Below, piece after piece: positions 2,731-16,598 of a stretch of 23,088 nt of DNA. The stretch covers positions 1-23,088 of IMG/VR virus record IMGVR_UViG_3300030118_001178; one strand, written 5' to 3'. The stretch comes from a virus. Made by a program: the position numbers and the translations under genes. The notes under the pieces were generated by a model that saw only the letters and a program-made list of their open reading frames with translations, made no database searches and had not been told where the DNA came from. Numbering within the stretch: position 1 is the stretch's first letter; each line of letters opens with the position of its first letter.

Positions 2731-2985
2731 ATGTCAATAAAGAAAGGATCAGAAACTTTTAGCGGCTATAACAAACCTAAAAGAACACCTGGTCATAAAA
2801 CTAAAAGTCATGCAGTTTTAGCTAAAGTTGGAGATCAAACTAAGTTAATTAGGTTTGGCCAACAAGGTGTAAGTGGTGATAAAGGTAATACTGCAAGATC
2901 AAGATCATTTAAGGCCAGGCATGGTAAGAATATTAATAAAGGTAAAATGTCCGCAGCTTATTGGGCGAACAAAGTTAAATGGTAA
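2731..2985 (+). CDS. Conserved small basic phage protein
   Basis: The chosen ATG (2731) has GAGG at 2722-2725; a GTG at 2725 would place that site inside the coding region. The product is 84 residues and basic, with a block FSGYNKPKRTPGHKTKSH near the start and FKARHGKNINKGKMSAAYW near the end. I recall this pattern as a conserved protein of unknown role next to the terminase in marine podophages. It overlaps the large terminase start by 7 bases. Confidence 0.7.
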   Translation: MSIKKGSETFSGYNKPKRTPGHKTKSHAVLAKVGDQTKLIRFGQQGVSGDKGNTARSRSFKARHGKNINKGKMSAAYWANKVKW

Positions 2986-4652
2986 AGAAACTTTCTAATG
3001 TACCTGCAAAATTAAAGATCTTTAAAAACTTTTTATATATAGCCTGGAAACATTTACAACTACCAGATCCTACTCCAATGCAATATGAGATCGCAGATTA
3101 TTTACAATATGGATCTAAAAGAATTTGCATACAGGCATTTAGAGGTGCAGGTAAATCTTGGATCACATCTGCATTTACAGTTTGGAATTTATTAATGGAC
3201 TGTGATCGAAACATCCTGGTAGTCTCTGCTAGTAAAACTAGAGCAGATGACTTTAGTACATTTACACAAAGACTGATCCAGGAACTTCCGATCTGTGAAC
3301 ATTTAGTACCTAATGAAAATCAAAGACAATCTAAAGTATCTTTTGATGTAGGTGGTGCCAGGGCATCTCATGCACCATCAGTTAAGTCTATGGGTATTAC
3401 CGGACAACTTACCGGATCAAGAGCAGATCTAATTATTGCTGATGATGTAGAGTCAGCTAATAATTCTCAAACACAATTAATGAGAGATCGCCTGGGTGAG
3501 ACTGTTAAAGAATTTGATTCGATTATAAAACCAGAAGTAGGTAGGATCGTATTCCTGGGTACACCACAAACTGAAATGTCTTTATACAATCAGTTAGAAG
3601 AGAGAGGATTTAAAACTCAGATCTGGTCAGCTAGATATCCAGGTGAAAAAGAAAAGATCAACTATGGATCTAAACTAGCAAAGTCTTTGATCGAAAATAA
3701 ATACAATTTAAAACCTGGTGATCCTATAGATCCAAAAAGATTTGATGAAGAAGATCTAATGGAAAGAGAGGCTAGTTATGGCCGATCTGGATTTGCATTA
3801 CAGTTTATGTTAGATACAACATTATCTGATGTAAACATGTACCCACTTAAACTTAATGATCTAATGGTCATGTCCGGTATCGACTCTTGGGATGAGGCAC
3901 CAGGTAAAGTACAGTGGGCTAGTGGGATCGAGCAGATCAAAGCATTAGATCCAGAACTTCCTAATGTAGGACTTAAAGGTGATTACTATGTAGCACCTAT
4001 GTATTGCAGTAGTGAATATTATTCATTCGAGGGATCTGTTATGTCTATAGATCCGGCAGGTAGAGGTAAAGATCGGACTGCCTATAGTATTGTAAAGATG
4101 CTTAATGGGATCTTATATTTAACAGACATAGGATCATTTGAAGGTGGGTATGAAGATCAGACACTTACTGATCTAGCATTAGCGGCCAAGGCTCAAAATG
4201 TTAATCAGATCATAGTAGAATCTAACTTTGGTGATGGAATGTTCAATAGGCTATTAGAGCCTATATTAGCAAAGATATGGCCAGTTTCTTTAGATGAAGT
4301 ACGATCATCTATCCAGAAAGAAAAAAGGATTATAGACACTCTAGAGCCTGTAATGAACCAACATAGGCTAGTAATCAATCAAGAATTAATCAGAAGAGAC
4401 TTTGATCTAGATCGTGATCATCAACTATTTTATCAGATGTCCAGGATCACTAGATCTAAAGGATCATTAAGACATGATGACCAGATAGATGTCTTAGCTA
4501 TGGCAGTTCAATATTGGAATGAGGCTATAGGAAGAGATGTAGATCAAGCATTAGATTCCGCTAAAGAAGAAAGATTACGAGAAGAACTAGATGATTTTTT
4601 AGAACATACGATAGATCGCAGAAAACATAAATCAAATTCCTGGATAAATTAA
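2979..4652 (+). CDS. Terminase large subunit (T7 gp19-type DNA maturase B)
   Basis: This 557-residue ATPase/nuclease packages concatemeric DNA into the prohead. The N-terminal motor has a Walker A-type loop, FRGAGKSW, with the lysine at residue 59. A Walker B segment LIIADDVES has its acidic pair at ~155-156, and a motif III-like VFLGTPQTE follows. The C-terminal RNase H-like nuclease shows SIDPAGRGKD (Asp ~358), IIVESNFGDG and HDDQIDVLAMA (Asp ~504), all typical of gp19-type terminases. Length is close to T7 gp19 (586). The ATG at 2979 overlaps the end of the preceding gene. A long non-coding gap follows the stop, as expected at the end of the late region. Confidence 0.95.
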   Translation: MVKKLSNVPAKLKIFKNFLYIAWKHLQLPDPTPMQYEIADYLQYGSKRICIQAFRGAGKSWITSAFTVWNLLMDCDRNILVVSASKTRADDFSTFTQRLIQELPICEHLVPNENQRQSKVSFDVGGARASHAPSVKSMGITGQLTGSRADLIIADDVESANNSQTQLMRDRLGETVKEFDSIIKPEVGRIVFLGTPQTEMSLYNQLEERGFKTQIWSARYPGEKEKINYGSKLAKSLIENKYNLKPGDPIDPKRFDEEDLMEREASYGRSGFALQFMLDTTLSDVNMYPLKLNDLMVMSGIDSWDEAPGKVQWASGIEQIKALDPELPNVGLKGDYYVAPMYCSSEYYSFEGSVMSIDPAGRGKDRTAYSIVKMLNGILYLTDIGSFEGGYEDQTLTDLALAAKAQNVNQIIVESNFGDGMFNRLLEPILAKIWPVSLDEVRSSIQKEKRIIDTLEPVMNQHRLVINQELIRRDFDLDRDHQLFYQMSRITRSKGSLRHDDQIDVLAMAVQYWNEAIGRDVDQALDSAKEERLREELDDFLEHTIDRRKHKSNSWIN

Positions 4653-4874
4653 TTCCTACTATCGAGAGTTAAGAGACTTGTATAACCTATTGTATCTGAT
4701 AGGTACATGTTTAGGTAGCAAGGGTGGGTGAGATAGTAGTCTATACTCTTAGTGATACTATTAGTGAACTAAGGGTACATGGGTGTATCTTAGATACTTA
4801 CTCCACCTAGTCACTCTCAAGGTATTTTTGGTACACCTAGATCTAACACTTATAAACAACTACAACTAACTATT
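4653..4874. other. Structured non-coding gap after the terminase
   Basis: I see no credible gene in these 222 bases, but many inverted repeats: CTACTATC (4656-4663) with GATAGTAG (4732-4739); ACCTAT (4685-4690) with ATAGGT (4699-4704); CTTAGT (4748-4753) with ACTAAG (4768-4773); and the 13-base palindrome GTATCT-T-AGATAC (4785-4797). A 12-base word, TTGGTACACCTA (4828-4839), recurs at 5846. The gap lies between late and early genes, where T7-like phages have their terminal repeats and packaging signals. Termination or packaging roles are inferred. Confidence 0.6.
4828..4839 (+). repeat. Direct repeat TTGGTACACCTA, copy 1
   Basis: An identical 12-mer lies at 5846-5857. Each copy is followed by ACAACTAA (4862-4869 and 5863-5870) shortly before a gene start. 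It could be a phage-specific promoter, a protein site or a terminal-repeat fragment. Confidence 0.6.
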
Positions 4875-5051
4875 ATGACTGTATTATTAATTATATTGAT
4901 ATGTGCAATAGCACTAGCTATGCACTATTATCCAGAACACTTTAAAGATTTCTTACACACAATAAGAACCACATATCTAAGACCAGAGATCAGTATTTTT
5001 GAATTGATCATCTTAGCAGTGATTACATTATTAATTATATCGATATTATGA
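4875..5051 (+). CDS. Small two-transmembrane protein, holin candidate
   Basis: An ATG at 4875 opens a 58-residue frame. It has two hydrophobic segments (about residues 2-16 and 41-58) joined by a polar, charged loop (YYPEHFKDFLHTIRTTYLRPE). Two-TM proteins of this size beside a terminase gene are typical class II holins; T7 gp17.5 lies just before gp18. No endolysin gene is adjacent, so the role is inferred from topology and place. The stop overlaps the next ATG by 4 bases (ATGA), which supports translation. Confidence 0.6.
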   Translation: MTVLLIILICAIALAMHYYPEHFKDFLHTIRTTYLRPEISIFELIILAVITLLIISIL

Positions 5052-5218
5052 ATGGAGTAGATTTACAACTAATTATGTTAGATAAAGGGATCACCTTAGA
5101 TAGACTATGTGATGATCTTGATCTCAGTAGAAATCAAATTGTAGGTATGCTACATGGAGACTCAGAGATCTCTAAAGAAGTTAAAGTATATGTAGGTACT
5201 TATGCCAAAGGATCCTAA
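5048..5218 (+). CDS. Small HTH-like protein (56 aa)
   Basis: This ATGA-coupled frame encodes a 56-residue protein. Residues ~12-36 (DKGITLDRLCDDLDLSRNQIVGMLHG) read like a Cro/cI-type helix-turn-helix: a short helix, a turn at LDLS, then a recognition helix SRNQIVGML. It is short for a complete repressor. It overlaps the downstream metallopeptidase gene by 17 bases, so the two are probably made together. DNA binding is inferred from the pattern only. Confidence 0.5.
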   Translation: MNGVDLQLIMLDKGITLDRLCDDLDLSRNQIVGMLHGDSEISKEVKVYVGTYAKGS

Positions 5219-5543
5219 GTTTCCATCTTATGTGACTATGGGTTATACCAAGATCAAATTGATCTTAGTAGATCCAGAGATCTGTAAAGATATCGGAGAG
5301 CAGCAAGGATCATACATGGGATCACCGCCATACAAGATCTACCTGGATCGAGACATCATAACTAATGGTGGATCTGATGCTGCTAATCTAGTGATCCATG
5401 AGATCTTACATCATATCTATGGTGTATCTGAATGTGATGATAAGACTACAGAAGAGATCCTGGTTAATACATTAGCTAATGGGATCACTGAGTTGATCTA
5501 TAGATCTGAACTTAAAGACTGGTTAAGAAAACAAACATTATAG
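5202..5543 (+). CDS. Putative zinc metallopeptidase (HExxH protein)
   Basis: The 113-residue protein contains VIHEILHHIY with His66, Glu67 and His70, the HExxH zinc-binding and catalytic signature. A following helix TEEILVNTLANGI (Glu84/85) is well placed for the third zinc ligand of a gluzincin-type fold such as ImmA/IrrE or SprT-like proteins. The N-terminal half (MGYTKIKLILVDPE, PPYKIYLDRD) looks like a beta sheet. Substrate is unknown. The coupled HTH-like gene upstream recalls ImmR/ImmA repressor-protease pairs; a lysis role beside the holin candidate is the alternative. The overlap with the upstream gene supports the ATG at 5202. Confidence 0.65.
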   Translation: MPKDPKFPSYVTMGYTKIKLILVDPEICKDIGEQQGSYMGSPPYKIYLDRDIITNGGSDAANLVIHEILHHIYGVSECDDKTTEEILVNTLANGITELIYRSELKDWLRKQTL

Positions 5544-5717
5544 AACCTGGAATATTTGATACAAAAATATGAAAGGGTAATCGTATAGGCGAGGCCTAGG
5601 ATCTCCCATATCGATCTATGGCCGAGGGTGTGGGTATAATGTCACTGGCCTGGTGACACAAATATTCTAATGATCAATGATCCTGCGGATCCACAAAGGA
5701 TATCGTATCTGATGATC

Positions 5718-5733
5718 ATTTAGGATCCTAAAT
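5718..5733. repeat. 16-bp perfect palindrome ATTTAGGATCCTAAAT
   Basis: The two 8-base arms are perfectly complementary without a spacer and sit inside a larger nested stem. The sub-word GGATCCTAAATT (5723-5734) recurs at 8578-8589, inside another inverted repeat ahead of the winged-helix gene. That suggests a shared operator or structural element. Confidence 0.7.
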
Positions 5734-5845
5734 TTTCAGATCTGGCCAGGATTATACGAAGTTTAGGCCTAGGTTTTTGGTTTTTGGTGTGTCTTTGTGT
5801 GTGGGTGTTTCAGTTTTTTTCGAGATAGATCAAATAGATACACCA

Positions 5846-5857
5846 TTGGTACACCTA
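5846..5857 (+). repeat. Direct repeat TTGGTACACCTA, copy 2
   Basis: Identical to 4828-4839. Locally it is embedded in a second short repetition, ATAGATACA (5834-5842 and 5858-5866), flanking the 12-mer. Confidence 0.6.
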
Positions 5858-5912
5858 TAGATACAACTAATGAAATTCCAAGGTGGGATTAATTACATTA
5901 TGGAGTGACTTT

Positions 5913-6260
5913 ATGAAAACACATTACATAGTAGAAACCAGTTATGGTGATCAGAAACTTACAAAAGTAGATCAGTATGGTGATCCAATAGATCCAGGTG
6001 TGAAACAACTGAGCCTTGATCTTAACTTTAAATGCCAGGTGATCTTCAAACCTAACAATGAATTAGTATTTGAGATCTTTGGATCTACAGAAGAAGATGC
6101 AGTGGGTAATGCTAAGATCCAGGTTGCAGATCTATTGAAGGACTTTGATGATCTTACAGATAATCCTGGCAACAGTATCGAAGTGAGTCCATTTCTTAGG
6201 CATAAAATTGCTATGCTGAAATGTACTGATCAGATAGAGTTCAGAATTGCAAATGAATAG
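5913..6260 (+). CDS. Early-region protein of unknown function (115 aa)
   Basis: The ATG at 5913 has GGAG at 5902-5905 with a 7-base spacer, which makes it a better start than the upstream in-frame ATG at 5883. The product begins MKTHYIVETSYGDQKL and reads as mixed alpha/beta with an acidic middle (STEEDAVGNAKIQVADLLKD). No motif is recognised. It is the first of four overlapping small genes that look like a host-takeover or early block. Confidence 0.7.
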   Translation: MKTHYIVETSYGDQKLTKVDQYGDPIDPGVKQLSLDLNFKCQVIFKPNNELVFEIFGSTEEDAVGNAKIQVADLLKDFDDLTDNPGNSIEVSPFLRHKIAMLKCTDQIEFRIANE

Positions 6261-6477
6261 AATGTCAGCAGAAATTATTAAAGACTACATAAACCTGGAC
6301 ACATCAGAAGAAGATCTTAAGAAGATGGCTACCAGGGATCTTATGATCAACTTAAAGCATTATCGATCTAAGATCGGAACTGAGGATAATAAATCCATGA
6401 TCAGTAAAATTGAAAATGAAGTATTATCCAGGAACCTTGGTGATGAGTTTTTCAATTCTAAGTGGAAAAAGATATGA
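6253..6477 (+). CDS. Small early-region protein of unknown function (74 aa)
   Basis: The likely start is ATG 6253, overlapping the preceding stop by 8 bases; ATG 6262 is an alternative. The product is charged and helical (TSEEDLKKMATRDLMINLKHYRSKIG). No recognised family. It is coupled to the next gene through an ATGA overlap. Confidence 0.65.
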   Translation: MNRMSAEIIKDYINLDTSEEDLKKMATRDLMINLKHYRSKIGTEDNKSMISKIENEVLSRNLGDEFFNSKWKKI

Positions 6478-6719
6478 AGAGTAAACAAGATCGTATAGAT
6501 CATAATTCAGTTGTAGATTTAGAAATGGATCGTAAACATATGATCGAATTTTTACAGGATCAGAACAGAACTACTTATGATGATCTGATAATAATGCGGA
6601 AACATTATGAAGAGTTATGTGATGCCAGGCTACTTAAATTGGAGTCTGCAATCTGGTTGATCTTGATCTGGAAAGAAATCTATAGAAGAGACTCTTTTAT
6701 AATAAGGCCGCCTAAATGA
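6474..6719 (+). CDS. Small early-region protein of unknown function (81 aa)
   Basis: The ATG at 6474 forms an ATGA overlap with the preceding stop and is preferred to the in-frame GTG at 6462. It is a helical, charged protein with a hydrophobic stretch near the C-terminus (LESAIWLILIWKEIYRR), perhaps an amphipathic or membrane-associated helix. No family recognised. Confidence 0.65.
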   Translation: MKSKQDRIDHNSVVDLEMDRKHMIEFLQDQNRTTYDDLIIMRKHYEELCDARLLKLESAIWLILIWKEIYRRDSFIIRPPK

Positions 6720-6973
6720 ACCTTGATATTACCGGTGAATGTTATAAGTGGCATAAATGTGATGAGGCCATACTTGGTGTCACTACGACTATAGTTCCAA
6801 GATTAGTTTATGATCGTGATCAGTTGTTAGAGATCATGCAAACTAAGTTTGGTTTTACAGAACATGATGCCTGGGATTACATGTGTCATTCCATGATCAC
6901 ACCGATCCATCCAGATAAACATCCATTGATCTTAGTTTCTGATAGAGATCATGTTTTAGAACATATTAAGTGA
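6716..6973 (+). CDS. Small early-region protein of unknown function (85 aa)
   Basis: The start overlaps the preceding stop (ATGA). The protein is rich in His, Cys and Asp (GECYKWHKCDEAILG at the start, HSMITPIHPDKHP near the end) with a central helix. Metal binding is possible but not supported by a clear motif. A strong terminator follows within 100 bases, so this gene closes the block. Confidence 0.65.
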   Translation: MNLDITGECYKWHKCDEAILGVTTTIVPRLVYDRDQLLEIMQTKFGFTEHDAWDYMCHSMITPIHPDKHPLILVSDRDHVLEHIK

Positions 6974-8974: not shown

Positions 8975-9061
8975 TGGTGGCTAGAGTGGGAGTCGAACCC
9001 ACACGATCTTACGATCTCCGGATTTTAAGTCCGGTATGTCTACCAATTCCATCACCTAGCC
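8975..9061 (-). tRNA. tRNA-Leu(UAA), complete, probable attP
   Basis: The minus strand folds as a full class II tRNA. It has acceptor GGCTAGG with CTAGCC-A-CCA, D-arm GGAATTGGTAGA, anticodon stem CCGGA/TCCGG with loop CTTAAAA (anticodon UAA), a long variable arm (GATC-GTAA-GATC) and T-arm GTGGG-TTCGACT-CCCAC. CCA is encoded. No position is visibly broken, apart from a G·U at the base of the acceptor. T7-like marine phages with integrases are known to use tRNA-Leu as attachment site and usually carry only a partial copy. Here the whole gene is present, 14 bases upstream of and opposite to the integrase. It decodes UUA, which appears to be the main Leu codon here. Confidence 0.92.
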
Positions 9062-9075
9062 AGGAGTAATATATT

Positions 9076-10098
9076 ATGTCAATCAGAAAAAGAAATAAAG
9101 GTTATCAGATCGATATAAGTCATGATCATAGAAGATACAGAGTTCAAATCTCTGGTGATCATGGAGATGCGATCATAACTGAACAGTTAATTATCAAAGA
9201 ACTAAAGACTGGTAGATCATGGGATCAGATTTTACAAATGATAGAAACCAGTAAAAAAGATCTAACAGTCTCAGCTATCTTATCTAAGATTAAGCATCAA
9301 TATAATGACAAGCATGGGATCCAGACTGCTACTAATGTGGTTCATGATCTTGGATCTGAATTGAAGATTACAGATCTGGATGAAGATCACATAGATCAGA
9401 TGATTGAACTCTGGAAGTCCAGAGGAAATTCAAATGCAACTTGTAATAGAAAGTTAGCAGTGATCTCCAAGATCTTAAACCATGCTTATAAAAGATCATA
9501 CATTAAGATCAAACCATGTATCGAATGGTTGAAGGAAGGTGCAGGTCGGATCAGATATTTAAAAGAAACTGAACAGATCTTGTTTTGTAATATTCTCAGA
9601 TCTGGTGGACATCATGATCTTGTAGATCTAGTGACTGTTGCATGTGATACTGGTTTTAGAAAATCAGAACTTAAGAGGATCGATCTAAGAAGAGATCTTG
9701 ATGGTGATCAACTAACCTGCCAGGCCACAAAAAATGACACGATCAGAACTATTAATCTTACAAAAAGATCTAAAGCGATTTTACATAGAAGAGGTAATAA
9801 TCCATTTAGCAATATAACTGATGAGTATCTTAGATCTGCCTGGAACTTTGGTAAGATCAAGATGGGATTAGAGAATGATCATCAGTTTACATTTCATTGT
9901 ACTAGACATACATGTGCAAGTAGATTAGTTCAAAGAGGAATTGGGATCCAGGTAGTGCAATCATGGTTAGGTCATAAGACAATTAAGATGACACTAAGGT
10001 ATGCACATTTGAATCCTAATAATTTTATAGAGGCCAGGAATGTACTTGATCAGATTAGTAGTGACAAATCTGGTGACAATAAAGTCACAAGTATATAG
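9076..10098 (+). CDS. int: Tyrosine-family site-specific integrase
   Basis: This 340-residue recombinase catalyses integration between attP and the host attB. Residues ~1-60 resemble an arm-type DNA-binding domain (RRYRVQISGD), and ~65-155 the SAM-like core-binding domain. The catalytic domain shows TGFRKSEL (Arg195), FHCTRHTCAS (His274, Arg277), WLGH (His300) and the nucleophile in LRYAH (Tyr309), a complete R-H-R-H-Y set. The ribosome binding site AGGAG (9062-9066) abuts the tRNA, so attP and the integrase start are almost fused. Integration through the tRNA would therefore leave int at one prophage edge. Confidence 0.95.
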   Translation: MSIRKRNKGYQIDISHDHRRYRVQISGDHGDAIITEQLIIKELKTGRSWDQILQMIETSKKDLTVSAILSKIKHQYNDKHGIQTATNVVHDLGSELKITDLDEDHIDQMIELWKSRGNSNATCNRKLAVISKILNHAYKRSYIKIKPCIEWLKEGAGRIRYLKETEQILFCNILRSGGHHDLVDLVTVACDTGFRKSELKRIDLRRDLDGDQLTCQATKNDTIRTINLTKRSKAILHRRGNNPFSNITDEYLRSAWNFGKIKMGLENDHQFTFHCTRHTCASRLVQRGIGIQVVQSWLGHKTIKMTLRYAHLNPNNFIEARNVLDQISSDKSGDNKVTSI

Positions 10099-15890: not shown

Positions 15891-16598
15891 ATGGATAACA
15901 AATATATTCTTTTATTAGGTGATTGTTTAGATCATTTAAAAAATCTTGAAGATAATAGCATAGATTTAATTATTACTTCACCGCCTTATGAAGATGTTAT
16001 GGGTGCCGGATATGGTGCTAAAACTAAAGACATATTATTTTTAAAATTATATTCTGAATTTTTAGATAAAGTTTTTAGAGAATATAAACGAATTTTAAAA
16101 GAGAATGGTCAAATATTTTTTAATATAAAAAGTAAAACTTTGAAGAAAAAATTAAACACACCTCATTGGATTGAATTTACAGATGGGTTTCAAAATTTAT
16201 TATTTAAGTCATATATTATTTGGAAATATGCCGGTTCATTTGATAGTACAAAGTCTAGGTTTCATTTAGATTATGAAGTTATATACCACTTATCTAAAGG
16301 TGATGATATTTATTTGAACTCTGATTGTGACATACATGATCCATTGTCGAGTGTATGGTATGTTCCGCATAACATTGAAAAGAAAGACAGAGTGCATCCA
16401 ACACAAATGCCATTAGCATTAGTTGAAAGAATACTTAAAGTTGCAAGTAAAAAAGGTGATGTTGTTTTAGATAATTTTATGGGTAGTGGAACTACAGGTA
16501 TTAGTTGCAAACGAAATGATCTGAAATTTATAGGCATAGAATTAAATAACAAATATTTCGATATAGCAAAAAGAAGAATGGAAGAAAAACAAAAATGA
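15891..16598 (+). CDS. DNA methyltransferase, TSPPY type (N4-cytosine or N6-adenine)
   Basis: The 235-residue enzyme has catalytic motif IV as ITSPPYED (TSPPY at residues 29-33) near the N-terminus and the SAM-binding motif as DNFMGSGTTG near residue 200. This is the beta-class order. HPTQMPLALVERIL is the usual segment preceding it, and FIGIELNNKYFDIAKRR closes the domain. SPPY is commonest in N4-cytosine enzymes; the target cannot be read from sequence. No partner nuclease is adjacent, so it probably protects phage DNA or alters host methylation. Its base-word use differs sharply from its neighbours (3 GATC, no CCWGG in 708 bases), which suggests recent acquisition. It overlaps the polymerase start (ATGA). 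Confidence 0.9.
   Translation: MDNKYILLLGDCLDHLKNLEDNSIDLIITSPPYEDVMGAGYGAKTKDILFLKLYSEFLDKVFREYKRILKENGQIFFNIKSKTLKKKLNTPHWIEFTDGFQNLLFKSYIIWKYAGSFDSTKSRFHLDYEVIYHLSKGDDIYLNSDCDIHDPLSSVWYVPHNIEKKDRVHPTQMPLALVERILKVASKKGDVVLDNFMGSGTTGISCKRNDLKFIGIELNNKYFDIAKRRMEEKQK

Follow-up and report, generated by a model that had tools for sequence, protein, structure and literature searches.

Avoidance of restriction sites is a textbook strategy of phages, GATC, CCWGG and GGCC are classical methylation sites, and SAR11 ranks among the sea's most abundant bacterial groups. To our knowledge, a gain of such words almost to saturation, in a clade whose sisters avoid them, has hardly been described, and no cause for it is accepted.

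Several described systems come close. An excess of GATC and GGATCC was reported in subcluster B3 mycobacteriophages, and its cause was left unexplained by the authors (PMC4841201). In cyanobacteria, HIP1 (GCGATCGC) and related iterated palindromes, which contain methyltransferase sites, pile up genome-wide in a manner linked to methylation (PMC4390886). Restriction-site avoidance is documented in phages (PMC6286503), including a depletion of GANTC in pelagiphages (PMC9516812). The latter report also describes methylation at GATC, CCWGG and GGCC in the genomes of marine viruses, with the last two motifs seen in viruses alone and a methyltransferase encoded by only 14 of the 83 methylated viral genomes; in another study, an orphan GATC methyltransferase is reported in a Pelagibacter isolate (PMC12570018).

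The DNA analyzed here is a virus-derived stretch of 23,088 bases (hereafter the window, positions 1–23,088), which holds 397 GATC (17.2 per kb), 83 CCWGG and 40 GGCC, spread across nearly all of its genes. As in the B3 mycobacteriophages, a phage lineage shows a genome-wide GATC excess that its sisters (sister subclusters in B3, sister phages here) lack. Retested on 40 kb, the B3 phage Phlyer contained 449 GATC against 290 in codon shuffles (z 14.5), with the word up in all frames; however, its excess is weaker (1.55-fold) and occurs in a GC-rich phage, CCWGG and GGCC are below expectation, GGATCC is raised 4.3-fold, and zero-word sisters are not reported for this subcluster (PMC4841201). In the window, GGATCC numbers 19 against 11.5 expected given the GATC count. 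The window also resembles a genome carrying HIP1 in that palindromes far exceed codon-level expectation genome-wide, but neither the 8-mer GCGATCGC nor any extension past the core was found in it. HIP1 is an 8-mer of cellular genomes with known methyltransferases, whereas the words of the window's clade are bare 4- and 5-mers of a phage, with no such enzyme recognized among the families searched in its GATC-rich relatives. Restriction-site avoidance involves the same phage family and type of word, but in the window's clade three words are reversed to near saturation. Host-supplied methylation and phage orphan methyltransferases involve the same three motifs, methylated in marine viruses mostly without a methyltransferase, although the available portions of the two reports do not describe a word excess of the window's size (PMC9516812, PMC12570018). 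What is new, as far as the open-licence literature goes and allowing that earlier reports may exist, is the near-saturation, the involvement of three words together, and their mirror-image absence in sisters.

Extent of the word excess in a T7-like phage fragment

The window is a fragmentary virus record with a T7-type gene set, comprising large terminase, integrase, single-subunit RNA polymerase, endonuclease I, primase-helicase, DNA polymerase, and portal. Its terminase is 81% identical to that of the uncultured MedDCM-OCT-S28-C10 (hereafter S28C10) and 76% identical to that of Pelagibacter phage HTVC119P, both classified as Votkovvirus, and groups with the former. On these sequence grounds, the window is a piece of an uncultured, Votkovvirus-like (T7-like) Autographivirales phage of the ocean, related to pelagiphages.

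A sequence-only reading had proposed that synonymous codons in a terminase gene at 2979–4652 are chosen to build GATC and CCWGG across codon borders. The gene at these coordinates (plus strand) indeed encodes a 557-aa T7-type large terminase (PF22530, E 2.5e-38). We permuted synonymous codons within each gene, preserving both protein and codon usage, and note that the resulting z-scores assume independent sites. The terminase contains 41 GATC against 17.4 in shuffles (z 9.3) and 11 CCWGG against 4.1 (z 6.1), with none of 1000 shuffles as high for either word. Equal numbers after shuffling, which would have refuted the proposal, were clearly not obtained. While the effect in the terminase proved real, its scope had been under-called, since the excess spans the whole genome and extends to GGCC: across the window's genes, GATC numbered 377 against 189 in shuffles (z 24) and CCWGG 75 against 26 (z 16), counts that none of 300 shuffles reached, and GGCC 34 against 12 (z about 8). 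No other of the 256 4-mers was as extreme as GATC in these shuffles. GANTC and CCSGG were not elevated in the window, and the words affected are thus specific. GATC is densest in the small, fast-evolving early genes (5202–6973, plus strand; 27–47 per kb), and the tyrosine integrase gene (9076–10098, plus strand) holds 33 within 1 kb. The integrase gene adjoins a tRNA-Leu(TAA) gene (8975–9061, minus strand), which is probably the attachment site (attP).

The window's clade is entirely without a dozen or more other 4- and 5-mers. Besides GGCC, these absences and the opposite sign of the same words in sister phages had been missed by the sequence-only reading. ACGC, ACGG, ACGT, CGTC/GACG, and many 5-mers, including CCTGA, GAAGC, ACAGC, CCTCC, AGGGG, and GGGAC, are wholly absent from both strands of the window, with 10–38 occurrences expected for most; so many missing words are as expected under many restriction systems. 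The depletion that defines restriction-site avoidance is seen for other words and reversed for GATC, CCWGG, and GGCC. Such extensive absence would be in keeping with the excess being a by-product of avoidance, whereby choices pushed off forbidden words land on the three favored ones. When avoidance of all 37 absent strings was simulated, however, it yielded 175 GATC, 27 CCWGG, and 12 GGCC against 343, 68, and 30 observed, and accounted only for CCGG. Since simulated avoidance leaves GATC this far short, avoidance does not create the excess, and we rejected this account for all three words, leaving it next to no credence. As a separate observation, CCTGA/TCAGG is absent from the window and in excess in three relatives (G001–G003), and CCAGA/TCTGG is absent or nearly so in those relatives and in excess in the window. 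This reciprocal avoidance perhaps reflects variants of one restriction enzyme.

Action of the pull across frames, positions, and sequence types

The codon junctions cited in the original proposal are all present in the terminase. For isoleucine, these are gag|atc (GATC at 3089), ctg|atc (3275), ccg|atc (3290), and ttg|atc (3689). For CCWGG, they are cgc ctg ggt (3488–3500, plus strand), in which a rare CTG codon yields CCTGG (3491–3495) with a GATC adjoining at 3486; ttc ctg ggt (3554); and gcc agg gca (3356–3367, plus strand), which yields CCAGG (3358–3362). The preference for ATC after G-ending codons also held, both in the terminase (14/20 against 5/20 otherwise; Fisher P 0.01) and over all window genes (114/170 against 43/367; P 3e-38). 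Similarly, leucine between a C-ending and a G-starting codon was encoded by CTG in three of four cases in the terminase, compared with one of 49 elsewhere, and in 18 of 32 compared with 19 of 589 over all window genes (P 2e-16).

We compared the choice of base at each synonymous position, with the rest of the word present, to that in the same codon family elsewhere. Counts were pooled over the window and relatives G001–G003, and the window on its own shows the same pattern. Nearly all synonymous positions of each word, in every frame, were shifted toward the word, bearing out the claim that the words arise in all three frames. For example, A in GGA|TC and alike was chosen in 276 of 295 cases (165 expected), third-base G before ATC in 318 of 430 (73 expected), the last G of CCAGG in 55 of 58 (12 expected), the first C of CCTGG in 79 of 92 (15 expected), and the third C of GGCC in 80 of 137 (16 expected). 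Control phages were flat for GATC and GGCC in this test. The middle base of CCWGG was freely A or T, as expected for a degenerate site. With the G|A junction held fixed, third-base G was found in 90/116 cases before ATC against 40/207 before ATT or ATA (P 4e-25), and related control phages showed no such difference (6/74 against 73/935).

The pull is not confined to codons. Pooled non-coding DNA contained 24 GATC in 1939 bp, against 6.3 and 11.6 expected under first- and second-order Markov models, respectively, and the largest non-coding stretch (4653–5201) holds seven. The pull apparently extends to the tRNA-Leu gene, whose variable arm reads GATC..GATC (9005, 9013) in the window, as opposed to GACC..GGTC in the relative S28C10. 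Although the first signs were codon choices, as a codon, tRNA, or codon-pair preference in translation would produce, such a preference is refuted by the all-frame, junction-controlled, and non-coding evidence; the words are moreover palindromic, the tRNA gene is apparently affected, and related control phages are flat, so that we consider its probability negligible. The results instead support the earlier suggestion that DNA words as such are the target of selection or of some biased process.

Among sites one synonymous change away from GATC, 76–79% are already GATC, compared with 33% in controls. For GATC and CCWGG, one-off words without a route to conversion were not depleted, which indicates attraction rather than repulsion of near-cognates for these two; those of GGCC were somewhat depleted.

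Comparison with S28C10 shows the same pull at the level of single changes. Aligned codons shared by the two contain 290 GATC in the window against 63 in S28C10, and single-step differences comprise 102 gains against nine losses. Very-short-patch repair by Vsr raises CCWGG in E. coli, and GATT/AATC are among the words depleted in the window shuffles, as might follow from a Vsr-like or other single-lesion process restoring C in methylated words. The signature of such a process, in which only C-restoring transitions are raised, is not seen: positions that Vsr cannot touch, such as the A in GGA|TC (276/295, as above) and the first C and last G of CCWGG, are equally shifted, and 58 of the 102 single-step gains are transversions. 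This share of transversions excludes C-restoring repair as the sole cause, a role we find scarcely credible. The pull works via transitions and transversions alike.

Opposite signs of the same words in related phages

The excess marks one clade, and nearer relatives are neutral. On the terminase tree, the zero, neutral, and high states require only two changes. Within the high clade the excess is graded, at 1.8, 2.2–2.3, and about 4-fold over Markov expectation; its members have a common history and are therefore not independent replicates.

In four cultured Pelagivirus phages of about 41 kb each (HTVC019P, 031P, 201P, and 109P), the sign is reversed. GATC is absent from all four against 74–83 expected, as is GGCC against 11–16 expected, and CCWGG occurs zero to one time against 4–7 expected. 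HTVC120P and HTVC309P likewise have no GATC, but GGCC is in excess (43 against 17 and 38 against 17, respectively), indicating that the words are forbidden or favored lineage by lineage and one by one. HTVC309P, which combines the GGCC excess with the lack of GATC, encodes a C5-cytosine methyltransferase (L239:2664-4100). In HTVC120P no C5-cytosine methyltransferase is annotated and none was found in a motif scan, and an encoded methyltransferase thus does not simply explain the GGCC excess. Across 25 words, this duality was weak: words forbidden in one phage exceeded z>3 elsewhere in 14% of cases against 6%. Such words are only mildly over-used elsewhere, which limits strong attraction to a few words. 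Both signs are nevertheless found, word by word, inside one family related to SAR11 phages, providing a natural contrast for asking if a phage gains from the DNA marks of its host, and in what way. In HTVC201P and HTVC019P, we also observed GCAGC/GCTGC about 16 sd below shuffles.

This purging bears on the possibility that the words are binding sites for a nucleoid protein, a methylation-sensing regulator, or a replication or packaging factor, their density being favored for binding and not for modification. The sites are palindromic, and a GATC-binding nucleoid protein, Gbn, is described in Streptomyces (PMC9239103). However, three unrelated words would require three proteins, and the purging of the same words in sisters points to restriction-modification specificities. 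Moreover, the intervals between GATC sites are distributed close to exponentially (CV 1.00), without regularity, and no extended flank was found around GATC, flanks being near expectation (CGATCG count 0). We regard binding as an unlikely explanation.

Modifying enzymes and the origin of the excess

The window carries one N6/N4 DNA methyltransferase gene (15891–16598, plus strand; PF01555), whose product resembles in sequence CcrM and an N4-cytosine enzyme of solved structure. The gene is missing from near relatives and was probably gained recently. We rejected it as the cause of the excess: it contains only three GATC, it is missing from GATC-rich relatives, and its homologues were found in few other contigs (L086–L088), which are GATC-poor. 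No methyltransferase of PF00145, PF02086, or PF01555 was found in the GATC-rich relatives G001–G007, nor PF05869 in five further records. It remains possible that undescribed methyltransferase families or unsampled genome parts hide a phage-encoded enzyme.

The host could not be identified. A search with the attP pattern matched no genome, and a tRNA-Leu search of 385 alphaproteobacterial genomes gave at best 88% over 66 bases, which does not permit a host call. A scan of the same number of sampled alphaproteobacterial genomes for GATC clusters found none comparable: the highest value was about 0.25 per kb, and the window has 1.04.

The explanation we favor, which could equally prove right or wrong, is that host-modified words are forbidden where they are restricted and favored where the phage is modified, through host-supplied marks combined with selection for dense modified sites. 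The phage lineage is under a sustained genome-wide pull toward three palindromic words, with about three quarters of the synonymous GATC opportunities filled. Under this model, GATC, CCWGG, and GGCC would most likely be the sites recognized by enzymes with which its bacterial hosts modify DNA. Such sites would be restricted in sister lineages and purged there to zero, and in the window's lineage the DNA would be modified at these words by host enzymes. Modification of the sites is itself inferred, and we attribute it to the host, although none has been identified, because the phage clade seems to encode no methyltransferase. Dense modified sites would then be favored, most plausibly as a shield against nucleases and other defenses. 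That density pays is likewise inferred without methylation data, and the lack of a demonstrated advantage of site density beyond mere presence is one point against this explanation.

Its main rival is a ratchet of methylation-biased repair, in which a mismatch that creates a word is methylated on the strand concerned and the opposite strand is repaired to agree with it; sites thereby build up without benefit. Whatever the mutational path or type of sequence, this would affect every position of a methylated word, as observed, and such a model was proposed for cyanobacterial HIP1 (PMC4390886). Yet the enzyme activity is hypothetical and would have to serve three words at once during phage replication, and, by the account of the model's own author, repair usually outruns methylation (PMC4390886). 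We consider the ratchet improbable but not excluded; it cannot be separated from selection with present data.

If host marks combined with selection are indeed responsible, a broader and more tentative proposition, which we put forward as a possibility only, is that, in phages, evolution draws the recognition words of DNA-modifying enzymes to either of two attractors, extinction or saturation, set by the lineage's modification. Dense host-written marks would then form a genome-wide shield, and a host's methylome, even that of a never-cultured host, might be read from word excess alone. The findings suggest a route to inferring modification from sequence alone, and bear on how strongly a phage genome can be molded, toward a word or away from it, by enzymes that mark DNA.

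Two further gene sets were observed in GATC-rich phages. In one relative of the window, a pair of genes for fatty acid desaturases (PF00487) lies upstream of the terminase (L002:958-2285); the first of them scores under the curated cut-off. At L244:1069-2717, Phlyer has genes for IbrA, with a PAPS reductase domain, and IbrB, a ParB-like nuclease; these recall DNA phosphorothioation genes and provide an as yet untested lead to a phage-made GATC mark. GAAC/GTTC is also raised in Phlyer.
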